Source of the DNA: a virus | IMG/VR virus record: IMGVR_UViG_3300021335_000108 | Span: 1 to 21,892 of that record | Length of the DNA: 21,892 nucleotides | Direction: 5' to 3' (one strand) | Shown: positions 2,883-20,333 of the stretch, one piece after another | Numbering within the stretch: position 1 is the stretch's first letter | Layout: each line of letters opens with the position of its first letter | The notes under the pieces: model-generated | What the model saw: only the letters and a program-made list of their open reading frames with translations | What the model was told of the DNA's origin: nothing | Database searches by the model: none | Program-made: the position numbers and the translations under genes

Positions 2883-4295
2883 TTAAGCTACTGCAAGAAG
2901 AGCGATAACTGACTTATCAGTTGCAGTGTCGGGCACTAGCTGATTAAAGCCAAGAGACTGAGTAGCAACAATAACGTTACGCTGATTCATTACTTCGTAG
3001 TCTTGCTCTACATTCACGCCGCGAAGACGTGGAATAGCAAAGTTACGAACGTTGACTGCAAGGCCTACAGCAGCATCATCAGCTTCTGCTGGGAAGTTAT
3101 CAGACACGATCACAGGAGTACCAAAGATCGCACCTACTTGACCAGTAAGCTTGGTAGCAACGTCTGAACCTACATCTGTGATGTCCGCAAAACCAGCATC
3201 AGCAATCAGGTCATAGTAACGATTCTGAGAAACTACATATACCAACTCATCAGGCATCATGCCGTACTTGCCCATCTGCTTACGAGCGGATAGGAAGTCT
3301 GCTGCATCTACTGCGGTTCCGCCCAAGTTAGCTGCTGATACTGAAGTATCGAAGGTGTTGGTTCCAGCAATCTTGATCAAGCCATCAAAATCATCAGAGC
3401 CGCCGGTGGCAATATGATTTAGAAGAGCGTCGTCTACTGCACGAGCATGAGAGCGAGCAACAGACTCAACAAGCATAGGCATCAAGTTAATAAGAATTTC
3501 CTCATCAACATGGTTATCCATCAACGTGGTTGAGATCAAACGGTAAGCTTTAAGCACTACCTGCGCAGGCTGAGGAGTTGCACCGCCACGAGTCGTCAAG
3601 TTACCATTTTGTTGAGAATTTGATGCTCCGGTACCAAAGGTAGCCAAACCAGTATCTTGCTGAATTGGCAGTACTTGTGCTTGTGAATTGATTTGAATTT
3701 CACGGAAGGCGCGTGCAAGGCGAAGCTCTCGCATAATTTCCTTCTCAATCTGACCCGATACTTCCGTAGCGATGTTAGGTTGAGCAGAGGCATACGTTAC
3801 GCCAGCTTTCTCAATTACATCACGACCATAAGCAGTGTTCTCTAGACCCTTGCCGGTCATTACACCAAGAAGGTGTGCGTGCATAAACTGCTGGCCCCAC
3901 TTAGAGATAGTATCTACGCCCTCAGAACGATCTGAGAAAACGCGCTTAGATTCACGCATTTTTGTGATTTCTTCGTTCTTCTCTTCAAGCTCTTTCTGAT
4001 GCTTGGCTACGATCTCACCAATATCAGCGTCTTTTTGAGAAATTTTGGCTTCAACATCAGCCAACAACTTTTCTGCGCCCGTCTCAACCGCAGTTACTAC
4101 TGCGCTTTTAACTTGCTCTTCTTGTTGAGCTTTCGTTTCAGCTTCTGCTTTAGCTTGTTCAATAGCTTCTTGTGCTGCGGTTTCATCCGCGGCTTTTTGT
4201 TCGGCTTGCTTCATTGCAATCTTTGCAGCAGTTTCTTCTGCTACTTTCTTAGCAAATGCTTCCAAGTCGATTTCTGGAGTATTAACTTCAGACAT
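2883..4295 (-). CDS. Capsid precursor from an internal start inside the protease-capsid ORF
   Basis: In frame with the 674-aa ORF, Met205 (MSEVNTPEIDLEAF) is preceded on the minus strand by AAAAGGAGATCCAAATG: an AAGGAG Shine-Dalgarno (4302-4307) six bases before the ATG. The start falls at the boundary between protease and delta/capsid domain, exactly where a separate capsid gene would begin. The predicted product is 470 aa: delta-type coiled coil plus capsid domain. This would make many capsid precursors per protease-fused chain, in the way lambda uses nested in-frame starts for its protease and scaffold (C/Nu3). The site is seen directly; its use is an inference. Confidence 0.65.
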   Translation of the reverse strand: MSEVNTPEIDLEAFAKKVAEETAAKIAMKQAEQKAADETAAQEAIEQAKAEAETKAQQEEQVKSAVVTAVETGAEKLLADVEAKISQKDADIGEIVAKHQKELEEKNEEITKMRESKRVFSDRSEGVDTISKWGQQFMHAHLLGVMTGKGLENTAYGRDVIEKAGVTYASAQPNIATEVSGQIEKEIMRELRLARAFREIQINSQAQVLPIQQDTGLATFGTGASNSQQNGNLTTRGGATPQPAQVVLKAYRLISTTLMDNHVDEEILINLMPMLVESVARSHARAVDDALLNHIATGGSDDFDGLIKIAGTNTFDTSVSAANLGGTAVDAADFLSARKQMGKYGMMPDELVYVVSQNRYYDLIADAGFADITDVGSDVATKLTGQVGAIFGTPVIVSDNFPAEADDAAVGLAVNVRNFAIPRLRGVNVEQDYEVMNQRNVIVATQSLGFNQLVPDTATDKSVIALLAVA

Positions 4296-4907
4296 TTGGA
4301 TCTCCTTTTGAACCTCTTCGGTTCCGTCCGGTGTATCACTAGCTACGCTAGAAGTATTAACTTCGTCTTTAGCCAGAGTCTGACCGGCTAGATCTACACG
4401 ATTTGTGAAAGTTTTCTTGAATTCTTCATACTCATCCATAGAGTCAAAAGATTTCGCTAGTGAGAAAGTAGCCTCTTGATTGCAAGGAACGGATACAACC
4501 GATACTTCAAACAACTCAGCGTCCTTTATCTTTAGTCCGTCAGTTTCCGATAGATAATCAGCATCCTTGACTCGGAAACCAACAGAAAATGCTCCAAGGA
4601 TACCTTCTTTAACTAATTCGCAAACATTAGCAGGTGCAGATTTGCTAATTTTTGCTTCTAACTCTAGACCTGCTTCTGTTACTTTTAGGCCTGTAGCTCG
4701 ACCAATAGGTCTATCATAATCATGATTGAAAAGAATAATAGGATTCTTTTCAAAGTTTTTTAACCCACCTTTTGCCCATGCTTCTGCAGAGATAGTATCT
4801 CCTGCACGGTCAAAATCGCAAGTACTTGCCATCCCACGGATCATCACGCTTCCATCTTCGGAAGGCAATGATTTAAACGTAGACGTTAAATTAAATATTT
4901 TTTCCAT
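2883..4907 (-). CDS. Prohead protease - delta domain - major capsid protein fusion (HK97 fold)
   Basis: A single 674-aa ORF combining functions usually split over two genes. Residues about 1-165 are an HK97-type (U35-like) prohead protease: 'ILFNHDYDRPIGRA' holds the probable catalytic His62, 'LGAFSVGFR' the probable Ser108, and 'AELFEVSVVSVP' the family's conserved strand. Residues about 205-320 are a long Ala/Glu/Lys-rich coiled coil typical of the scaffolding delta domain. From about residue 322 (KRVFSDRSEGV) to the end is an HK97-fold capsid domain, with 'REIQINSQAQVLPI' and the C-terminal P-domain region 'GTPVIVSDNFP'. The protease would cleave off the delta domain during maturation. Inside, at 4295, an in-frame ATG with a strong ribosome binding site could give a separate capsid precursor (see next entry). 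No frameshift is apparent. Confidence 0.9.
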   Translation of the reverse strand: MEKIFNLTSTFKSLPSEDGSVMIRGMASTCDFDRAGDTISAEAWAKGGLKNFEKNPIILFNHDYDRPIGRATGLKVTEAGLELEAKISKSAPANVCELVKEGILGAFSVGFRVKDADYLSETDGLKIKDAELFEVSVVSVPCNQEATFSLAKSFDSMDEYEEFKKTFTNRVDLAGQTLAKDEVNTSSVASDTPDGTEEVQKEIQMSEVNTPEIDLEAFAKKVAEETAAKIAMKQAEQKAADETAAQEAIEQAKAEAETKAQQEEQVKSAVVTAVETGAEKLLADVEAKISQKDADIGEIVAKHQKELEEKNEEITKMRESKRVFSDRSEGVDTISKWGQQFMHAHLLGVMTGKGLENTAYGRDVIEKAGVTYASAQPNIATEVSGQIEKEIMRELRLARAFREIQINSQAQVLPIQQDTGLATFGTGASNSQQNGNLTTRGGATPQPAQVVLKAYRLISTTLMDNHVDEEILINLMPMLVESVARSHARAVDDALLNHIATGGSDDFDGLIKIAGTNTFDTSVSAANLGGTAVDAADFLSARKQMGKYGMMPDELVYVVSQNRYYDLIADAGFADITDVGSDVATKLTGQVGAIFGTPVIVSDNFPAEADDAAVGLAVNVRNFAIPRLRGVNVEQDYEVMNQRNVIVATQSLGFNQLVPDTATDKSVIALLAVA

Positions 4908-18108: not shown

Positions 18109-18137
18109 TTGACATAAATTGCAGGATACAGTATAAT
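18109..18137 (+). promoter_or_regulatory. Rightward sigma70-type promoter
   Basis: TTCTTGACA (-35 hexamer at 18109-18114), 17-bp spacer, TATAAT at 18132-18137, both hexamers consensus; 27 nt before the ATG at 18165. Confidence 0.88.
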
Positions 18138-18423: not shown

Positions 18424-19047
18424 ATGACCCCATTAGAACAGCAACAAGCCCGACTCAACCAACTCGTCATGTCCGAAAACTTTGGACCTGTAGCAGTAGT
18501 GCTTGAAGGGCGTGATACTGCAGGCAAGTCATCTACTATTCGGGAGGCTACTCACTATCTGCCTATGAACAAGTTTAGTGTTCAGCTGTCTGCCAAGCCT
18601 AGTAAAGAAACTATGGATAATTGGCTAGGCTACTGGAAGACGAAGATGCCTTCTGGCCCTCAGATGGTATTCTATGATCGCTCTTGGTACTCTAGAGCTA
18701 TGGTTCAAAAGATCAATGGGTGGTGCACAGATGAGCAGTACAAAATCTTTATGGAAACGGTAGAGGCATGGGAAATCTGCCAGCCCGTTCACATGATTAA
18801 ATTTTGGCTGTCTATCAGCGAAGAAGAGCAAGCTGCTAGAATTGACGAGAGAAGACACTCTCCCTTAAAGTTCTGGAAACTATCTCCTAACGATGAGAAA
18901 GCATTGTCCTACTATGATCAGATGACTTTGCTTAAAGAGCGTGTGGTAACCCGAGGGGACTGGCATACGATTGATTACAACAACAAAGCATCGGGCAAGC
19001 TAGCTCTTATTACTAGACTATGCGATGTATTAGAACAAACGAACTAA
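18424..19047 (+). CDS. ppk2: Polyphosphate kinase 2 (PPK2) family protein
   Basis: A 207-aa P-loop kinase of the PPK2 family, which transfers phosphate between inorganic polyphosphate and nucleotides. Walker A is 'LEGRDTAGKSSTIR' (27-40; family form E-G-x-D-x-A-G-K-x-x), Walker B-like segment 'MVFYDRSWYSRAMVQKI' (81-97) contains the invariant D-R-S-W-Y, and the lid region is 'IKFWLSISEEEQAARIDERR' followed by 'SPLKFWKLSP' (125-155), matching K-F-W-L-x-I-S-x-x-E-Q. It is a little shorter than typical PPK2 (about 230-300 aa), mostly at the C-terminus. AGGAG precedes the ATG and it has its own promoter. It may make ATP/GTP from host polyphosphate during infection; the direction and nucleotide cannot be read from sequence. 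Confidence 0.88.
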   Translation: MTPLEQQQARLNQLVMSENFGPVAVVLEGRDTAGKSSTIREATHYLPMNKFSVQLSAKPSKETMDNWLGYWKTKMPSGPQMVFYDRSWYSRAMVQKINGWCTDEQYKIFMETVEAWEICQPVHMIKFWLSISEEEQAARIDERRHSPLKFWKLSPNDEKALSYYDQMTLLKERVVTRGDWHTIDYNNKASGKLALITRLCDVLEQTN

Positions 19048-19056
19048 GGAATAGGT

Positions 19057-19461
19057 TTGGGAAAAGTAGTACAAAACCATAATCTGCAGATTGCATCACA
19101 GGTTGTACATATGGTTGCAGCTTACTTCGATTTGGATGTAGAAGTACATCTAACAGTGGGAAACCTAGGAGATAGCTGGGCTGAGTCCATATGCTACTGT
19201 GAGGGATTTGGAGAGATTGAGTTCGATAAAGAATTTATTCGTAACGCAAGTCGTGGCGAAGTAATAACTGTAACAGCGCATGAAATGGTGCATATTAAAC
19301 AGTACGAGTGTGACGGACTTATGTTGTCAGAGAAAGCAGCATATTTCAAAGGAAAAAAGTGGAAGGGCGAGTATTGGTTCTCTCCCTGGGAAGTAGAAGC
19401 AAGGGGTCATGAACAAGCATTTTTACATTTCTTTGACCAACTTCAAGAAAATTTTTCTTGA
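19057..19461 (+). CDS. Zincin-like metalloprotease (TTG start)
   Basis: A 134-aa protein with an HExxH zinc motif 'TVTAHEMVHIKQYECDG' (His75, Glu76, His79) and a probable third ligand Glu in 'SPWEVEARGHE' (Glu112 or Glu114), which is the gluzincin/SprT-like arrangement. It is close to minimal size for such a fold, lacks a signal peptide and so should act in the cytoplasm. The start is TTG at 19057 with AAGGA about 8 nt before it; no later ATG keeps the whole domain. It follows ppk2 by 9 nt and is probably in the same transcript. Target unknown. Confidence 0.75.
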   Translation: MGKVVQNHNLQIASQVVHMVAAYFDLDVEVHLTVGNLGDSWAESICYCEGFGEIEFDKEFIRNASRGEVITVTAHEMVHIKQYECDGLMLSEKAAYFKGKKWKGEYWFSPWEVEARGHEQAFLHFFDQLQENFS

Positions 19462-19486
19462 CTTTCAACCCCTCAACCACTATAAT
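19458..19486 (+). promoter_or_regulatory. Rightward sigma70-type promoter
   Basis: TTCTTGACT (-35 hexamer at 19458-19463), 17-bp spacer, TATAAT at 19481-19486. The -35 box overlaps the stop of the metalloprotease gene. It drives the NYTE gene and probably the tmRNA and tRNA-Cys behind it. Confidence 0.8.
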
Positions 19487-19531: not shown

Positions 19532-19870
19532 ATGAGCGACTTTACCGCAAAACCATCAAGCAACTACACTGAAGACATGATCTCTATGATGGAAGAGATG
19601 TACACGAATGCTCCATCACGAGCAACTGCAGAAGCCCTAGCTGCAGAGTTTGACAAGCCAGTACGTAGCGTTATTGCTAAGCTGTCAAGCCTAGGCATTT
19701 ACAAAGCCGAAGCACGAGTAACCAAGCAAGGTACTCCAGTGGTTCGCAAAGAAGAGCTGGTAGCTCAGATTCAGGCATCAGTTGGTGTGGAAGTACCTAC
19801 CCTTGCCAAGGCTACCAAAGCTGACTTACAAACGCTTCTAACTGCAATCTCAACAGTAGCAGTTCAATAA
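19532..19870 (+). CDS. NYTE-motif small protein, putative HTH DNA-binding (copy 2)
   Basis: A 112-aa protein: 'SSNYTEDMISMMEEMYTNAP' (about 9-28), 'ATAEALAAEFDKPVRSVIAK' (31-50), 'LSSLGIYKAEARVTKQGTP' and a C-terminal helix 'KADLQTLLTAIS'. It is a homologue of the proteins at 15758 and 21798. The region L-A-x-E-F-x-x-x-x-R-S-V-I-x-K-L looks like a helix-turn-helix. AAGGA precedes the ATG by 7-8 nt. Its stop is only about 14-20 nt before the tmRNA acceptor domain, so the tmRNA precursor is probably cut from the same transcript. A regulator of phage or host genes is likely but untested. Confidence 0.8.
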   Translation: MSDFTAKPSSNYTEDMISMMEEMYTNAPSRATAEALAAEFDKPVRSVIAKLSSLGIYKAEARVTKQGTPVVRKEELVAQIQASVGVEVPTLAKATKADLQTLLTAISTVAVQ

Positions 19871-19929
19871 TTCGATGAAGCTAAAGTAGGATTGAGTGGA
19901 CGGGGGTTCGATTCCCCCCTCCTCCACCA

Positions 19930-20002
19930 AGAGTACTCTGATACGTTTCGGCGTCAGTAAGTCGGGTAGATTCGCAATCTTCCGCTACAGAGTGCTCTTG
20001 AT
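19930..20002 (+). other. Intervening segment removed from pre-tmRNA
   Basis: Lies between the CCA of the acceptor piece and the G1 of the coding piece. AGAGTACTCTG at its start pairs with CAGAGTGCTCT near its end with one G-U pair, so the precursor would be one long hairpin on top of the acceptor stem. RNase P (at 20003) and 3' processing after CCA (19929) would remove it. Confidence 0.85.
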
Positions 20003-20099
20003 GGGGGAGCACGGTTTCGACAAGCAATCTCAGGTTAGTGGAGAATCGTCAACAGTGCCGGATCAAAGACGTTAACAACACTCCGGAAATAAACTAAAC

Positions 20100-20132
20100 G
20101 CAAACGATGACGTTTATCAACTAGCTGCATAA
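20100..20132 (+). other. tmRNA tag reading frame, peptide ANDDVYQLAA
   Basis: Frame GCA AAC GAT GAC GTT TAT CAA CTA GCT GCA TAA encodes ANDDVYQLAA. The Ala resume codon follows the usual adenine-rich ..CTAAAC context, the AND start and LAA end match functional ssrA degrons recognised by ClpXP/ClpAP and SspB. It looks more like gammaproteobacterial tags (ANDENYALAA) than like the usual alphaproteobacterial ones. Confidence 0.93.
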
Positions 20133-20249
20133 GCTAGCGGGGAGAGCCTTTCGCCTTGTTACCCAAAGGAGAGGCACTTAGTAAGCATACTGAGGTTTTG
20201 GCTAGTACCATGTAATCAGTGCCCTTAGTATGTTTTCTAAGTTAATTTT

Positions 20250-20323
20250 CTAGGGGTGGCGGAGAGGCTACGCAACGGACTGCAACTCCGTGTACGTCGG
20301 TTCGATTCCGACCTCCTAGTCCA
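20250..20323 (+). tRNA. tRNA-Cys (GCA)
   Basis: Full cloverleaf: acceptor CTAGGGG/CTCCTAG (one G-U pair), D arm GCG...CGC, anticodon arm ACGGA-CTGCAAC-TCCGT with anticodon GCA, T arm GTCGG-TTCGATT-CCGAC, discriminator T and encoded CCA. U73 plus GCA are the main CysRS identity elements, so it should be charged with cysteine. A second CCA follows directly (20324-20326). It lies about 10 nt after the end of the tmRNA, probably on the same precursor. Confidence 0.95.
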
Positions 20324-20333
20324 CCAAAAACAT

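Follow-up and report, generated by a model that had tools for sequence, protein, structure and literature searches.

A circularly permuted tmRNA gene lies at ~19869-20236 on the plus strand of the window, which is the whole stretch of DNA that was analyzed and a complete IMG/VR virus record of 21.9 kb. The gene was confirmed by two independent approaches. ARAGORN called a permuted tmRNA (tmRNA*) at 19833-20223 (+) with the tag ANDDVYQLAA* and the Rfam model for permuted tmRNA, RF04321, matched 19869-20132 with 90.4 bits (E 1.5e-16) against a cut-off of 47. Both results bear out the original prediction, made from the sequence alone, of a circularly permuted tmRNA with this tag, and chance is excluded as the source of the tmRNA features. 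Two-piece tmRNAs of phages have already been published and the window gene extends that known class; it appears to be of the betaproteobacterial structural class, and its exact tag was found in phages only. What is new comes from comparison. Unrelated phages can resemble each other more closely in the spacer between the two pieces, a segment presumed to be waste from processing, than in the adjoining tRNA-like piece, and near-identical phages can differ wholly in this spacer. This combination of likeness and difference makes the role of the tmRNA spacer directly testable.

The features of the gene and its surroundings are given in Table 1. Both the sequence reading and the ARAGORN call place the CCA-bearing acceptor piece ahead of the coding piece. 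All seven of the acceptor pairs form, and the third is the G20005-U19923 pair (G3-U), as had been predicted. The tag frame, for which ARAGORN and the alignment give the same peptide, starts with the resume codon GCA and ends with alanines followed by the stop codon TAA. The predicted cut points at 19929 and 20003 coincide with the piece boundaries read from the sequence. The predicted limits of 19884-20240 were slightly off on the 5' side, where the pairing region of the first piece begins at ~19869-19873. In relatives, compensatory changes are seen in the helix between the pieces (for example, G-C to C-G and U-A to A-U), and in the T4-like clade some of its consensus pairs are not formed. A one-piece gene was considered because the standard model RF00023 matched 20003-20326 with 51.3 bits, and this candidate was rejected as the 3' end of the match is the 3' half of the neighboring tRNA-Cys.

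Table 1. Positions of the permuted tmRNA, its parts and the adjacent features in the window.
Feature	Position	Strand	Basis or remark
Sigma-70-like promoter, TTGACT-17-TATAAT	19458..19486	+	11/12 matches; consensus scan only, transcription from it inferred
112-aa ORF directly upstream	19532..19870	+	weakly similar to DNA-binding proteins of phages (phrog_1725, E 1e-4)
First (acceptor) piece	19869..19929	+	ARAGORN, RF04321, sequence reading; 5' end approximate
5' strand of inter-piece helix	within first piece, 19869..19929	+	compensated changes in relatives
T arm	19902-19918	+	sequence reading
Acceptor 3' strand, CTCCTCC	19919-19925	+	sequence reading
Discriminator A	19926	+	sequence reading
CCA	19927-19929	+	sequence reading
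Spacer (intervening sequence), 73 nt	19930..20002	+	sequence reading, comparison
Second (coding) piece	20003..20236	+	ARAGORN, RF04321, alignment, RF01850; 3' end approximate
Acceptor 5' strand, GGGGGAG	20003-20009	+	sequence reading
Inter-piece helix 3' strand, tag frame, then pseudoknots	inside 20003..20236	+	
Tag frame, GCA..TAA, ANDDVYQLAA	20100..20132	+	ARAGORN, alignment
tRNA-Cys (gca)	20250..20323	+	just downstream of the tmRNA; a tRNA-Trp also follows

The contig itself is, judged by its genes, a T5-like phage. The terminase, the portal and a fused protease/capsid protein encoded on the same contig as the tmRNA resemble phage packaging and head proteins, in agreement with the prediction of a phage-borne gene, with 30-50% identity to T5-like phages (Demerecviridae) for the terminase and the capsid. 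The prohead protease and major capsid regions are contained in a single 674-aa ORF (2883-4907, minus strand); in the T5-like Vibrio phages that were examined these are separate genes. The stop codon of the ORF directly upstream touches the 5' piece of the tmRNA. By consensus scan, no strong promoter lies closer upstream of the tmRNA than the one in Table 1; additionally, four perfect TTGACA-17-TATAAT sites, all on the plus strand, are located at 18109, 18371, 20334 and 21216, within 3.7 kb of the right arm. A tRNA-Cys at the same place was observed in three contigs (L010, L028 and L031) and is missing in the close relatives L003 and L011. When 20243-20322 is compared with L003, the tRNA-Cys is cleanly present in the one and absent from the other, the second such difference from the sister phages and one that adjoins the tmRNA.

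The class of the gene was determined by comparison with the clade-specific Rfam models. The betaproteobacterial model RF01850 (beta_tmRNA) was the best clade model for the window, with 68.6 bits (E 9.6e-21), which falls short of the model's cut-off of 84 bits. This cut-off is exceeded in relatives that have the same tag, at 90.9 bits in L005 and L008 and 96.7 bits in L012, and for these three and the window RF01850 was the best of the clan among the matches listed. The gene is thus best explained, from sequence comparison, as a permuted ssrA of the betaproteobacterial structural class. Since RF01850 and not the alphaproteobacterial model RF01849 fits best in the window and its relatives, the alphaproteobacterial-like source that was originally proposed is not supported; the covariance-model check proposed along with it gave a match to the permuted form. 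In common with the RF01850 tmRNAs, the window gene has the helix between the pieces and the stretch that follows the tag (GCUAGC..GGG..GCCUUGUUACC). The two differ in the tag region, which is ANDEHFAMAA in the model consensus, and in the 3' hairpin, which the model has and the window lacks. A search for a cellular donor in 369 genomes of one class, which covers few genomes, found no close donor; the one gene that was clearly permuted, in L273, has the tag ANDDNFEVALAA and is of the beta class. Three other matches over the cut-off in that search were standard tmRNAs and were rejected.

Several known systems resemble the window gene in part. Buchholz et al. (2022, PMC9004378) found 53 two-piece tmRNA cases in phage genomes with ARAGORN, mostly marine or aquatic. 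The OM43 phage Melnitz, like the window, carries a permuted ssrA with a tag frame; however, the Melnitz gene groups with alphaproteobacteria and has a predicted glutamine riboswitch (PMC9004378), whereas the window gene is assigned to the beta class and comes from an apparently T5-like phage. No riboswitch match was found in Rfam for the window gene. A tRNA-Ala gene lying within the intervening sequence of a permuted tmRNA has been described, and the authors called this feature unique (PMC11915505). That case and the window agree in that the intervening sequence can hold another RNA, but in the published case, from a genome that is nominally archaeal, this RNA is an intact tRNA, and here it is an unannotated structured RNA shared between phages. 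The tmRNAs of Bacillus phage G and of mycobacteriophages (PMC4131195) are also phage-encoded, but they are one-piece genes of the standard form in unrelated phages.

Relatives of the neighboring ORF led to further tmRNAs with the tags ANDDVYQLAA or ANDDVYSLAA. One of the contigs with a related tmRNA, L005, carries gp32, a gp59-like helicase loader and a late-transcription regulator, and L004, L008 and L012 match it at ~99% or more over kilobases. These four therefore appear to belong to a phage type other than that of the window, namely T4-like, and no DNA in common with the window was detected outside the tmRNA in L005, L008 and L012. Five T5-like Vibrio isolates had no permuted tmRNA over the RF04321 cut-off; matches of 22-26 bits in known T5-like Vibrio phages sit in tRNA arrays and were rejected. 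When the phage collection was searched at the nucleotide level with the window gene, the tRNA-Cys and short tRNA-like pieces were returned and nothing else. Hundreds of viral contigs hold a permuted tmRNA. In a set assembled from three collection scans of at least 120 each and filtered with ARAGORN, 359 of the 372 collected loci were called permuted, among the matches listed. The filter removed false catches of the text pattern such as L337, which is a tRNA array, and L135, which is a standard tmRNA after a tRNA.

The exact tag ANDDVYQLAA was found in 12 other viral contigs, some of them T4-like, in the tag search of phage sequences that had been suggested, and in 0 of the 84,980 species genomes searched. 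The pattern ANDDVYxLAA occurs at 112 loci of the genome collection, all with ANDDVYALAA or ANDDVYSLAA, and the permuted form was recognized at none of the 112. These records are mostly gammaproteobacterial by title. The description of the tag as gamma-like was correct. The proposal that the tag had been remodelled is an unneeded assumption, since ANDDVYQLAA is one residue from the cellular tags ANDDVYALAA and ANDDVYSLAA and is present in the 12 other viral contigs. Because the tag is common to these contigs it appears to be a trait of the phage lineage.

The spacer of the window, the most unusual feature of the gene and one that the original prediction did not mention as structured or exchangeable, is predicted to be a folded RNA with compensatory changes. 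It consists of an outer stem (19930-19940 with 19988-19998) and a head of two hairpins, and with one flanking base on each side it folds with an energy of -25.8 kcal/mol (z -3.2). Across five sequences, five of its base pairs are changed on both sides, a number reached in 0 of 500 shuffles, and 98.5% of the cells are paired; all five of these two-sided changes come from a single divergent member, L383. A model of the spacer head (R1) run on 300 loci strongly matched only L383, which was among its training sequences, so that no wider family was found there. In viral contigs the exact spacer core was found inside tmRNA genes only. In five sister contigs (L003, L009, L011, L017 and L018) the spacer is replaced by the four nucleotides CGAT. 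The flanks of four of these are ~85-96% identical to the window, and L018 is similarly close upstream. The T4-like L012, on the other hand, has a spacer identical to that of the window at 72 of 73 positions, together with an identical T arm and acceptor, and L005 has a different spacer of 105 nt though it is 98.9% identical to L012 over 3.5 kb. The exchange of the window's spacer across phage types rests on one contig, L012. This comparison shows that the structured spacer has apparently been gained, lost or exchanged independently of the remaining gene. Because sister phages have the 4-nt form, the spacer would be dispensable for making the tmRNA, provided that the 4-nt forms are functional.

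The same behavior is seen across the viral permuted tmRNAs. Among the matches listed for 351 confirmed genes, spacers of 55 nt or more with an identity of at least 85% are found in 151 pairs; pairs of 4 nt with 4 nt are an artefact of the length threshold and were excluded from the counts. In 59 of the 151 pairs the coding piece is less than 80% identical, and in 20 there is no match in either 1.5-kb flank. The 20 represent about seven spacer families and not 20 independent events. In most of them the spacers are 87-97% alike, compared with 80-93% for the tRNA-like piece. The reverse is observed for L038 (4 nt) when compared with L310 (76 nt) and L347 (90 nt), where closely matching flanks enclose unrelated spacers. 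An assembly artefact is improbable for spacers whose flanking pieces are themselves different, but is possible for single contigs. Among the matches listed, spacer lengths range from 3 to ~126 nt, a distribution that is not unbiased, and many spacers have in common an outer stem and end in TTGAT or a similar sequence. Some spacer elements are seen again in other permuted tmRNAs, where they lie in the 5' leader.

The reading that we favor, and consider highly probable, is that the phage encodes a beta-class two-piece tmRNA that is processed by the host and works with host SmpB during infection. The tmRNA would be co-transcribed with the upstream ORF from the host-type sigma-70 promoter. Host RNase P would cleave at 20003 and processing of the 3' end would occur at 19929, which would remove the 73-nt spacer. 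The two pieces would remain paired, be charged with alanine and, with host SmpB, release ribosomes that stall in the course of infection; the tag added in the process would be one belonging to the phage lineage. No smpB was found in the 15 tmRNA-bearing phage contigs (the window and 14 others), which are partial so that smpB may lie outside them; this fits the use of host SmpB. A decayed or inactive copy carried along by the phage, as phages can carry gene fragments, is very improbable, given the complete relatives in viral contigs with tag frame, acceptor and T arm all kept and the compensated changes in the inter-piece helix. It is also possible, but unlikely, that redirection is the main benefit and that the phage tag gives proteins a protease fate unlike that of the host tag, for example for the recycling of host proteins. 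The restriction of the exact tag to phages, its presence in both T5-like and T4-like phages and a comparable idea published for phage Melnitz (PMC9004378) are in keeping with this, but an ordinary degron is simpler for a tag that ends in LAA and is one residue off the cellular tag.

These alternatives and those for the spacer concern different parts (the tag, the spacer and the whole gene), so the likelihoods assigned to them overlap. For the spacer, gain, loss and exchange would most simply occur by recombination through the conserved flanking pieces. We consider it somewhat probable that the spacer either is a passenger or helps processing, its outer stem lengthening the acceptor helix for RNase P and for 3'-end processing, and that it is swapped by ordinary recombination. 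The shared outer stem and TTGAT-like ending, the wide range of lengths among the matches listed and the identical T arm and acceptor in the window and L012 all argue for this, but alone it leaves unexplained the heads that are more conserved than the tRNA-like piece and the elements found in tmRNA leaders. Those two observations, together with the compensatory changes, would fit functional cargo, a small RNA freed by tmRNA processing that is under selection and traded between phages. This is a tentative suggestion only, as sister phages manage with 4 nt and recent exchange alone could account for the high identity. In its broadest and equally doubtful form, the spacers of phage permuted tmRNAs might serve as a docking site, from which small structured RNAs would be freed by processing to act during infection, and unrelated phages would trade these RNAs, with the 73-nt spacer of the window being one of them. 

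Some further elements were observed during the comparison. A 68-nt spacer element occurs in the tmRNAs of otherwise unrelated phages (L316, L357, L373, L388 and L418) and also in tmRNA leaders (L447, 9900-9963; L478, 284-347), with stem changes that by eye are compensated. An unannotated structured RNA of ~65 nt with the core CAGYACnGUGGGAnGYRCAG..GACAA..ACAAGGUUCGAAUCCAA is present in 118 viral contigs (for example, L371 3524-3586, L042 2762-2828 and L327 3826-3891) and had no match in Rfam up to E 5. Copies sit in the spacer of a permuted tmRNA or in its 5' leader, and are found more frequently close to tRNA genes of phages. The closing stem varies widely yet is still paired across 63 distinct sequences. 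Upstream of the tmRNA, the window also carries a PPK2-family polyphosphate kinase gene (18424-19047, plus strand; PF03976, E 1.6e-40), a family that is present in only 15 of 50,697 phage records.
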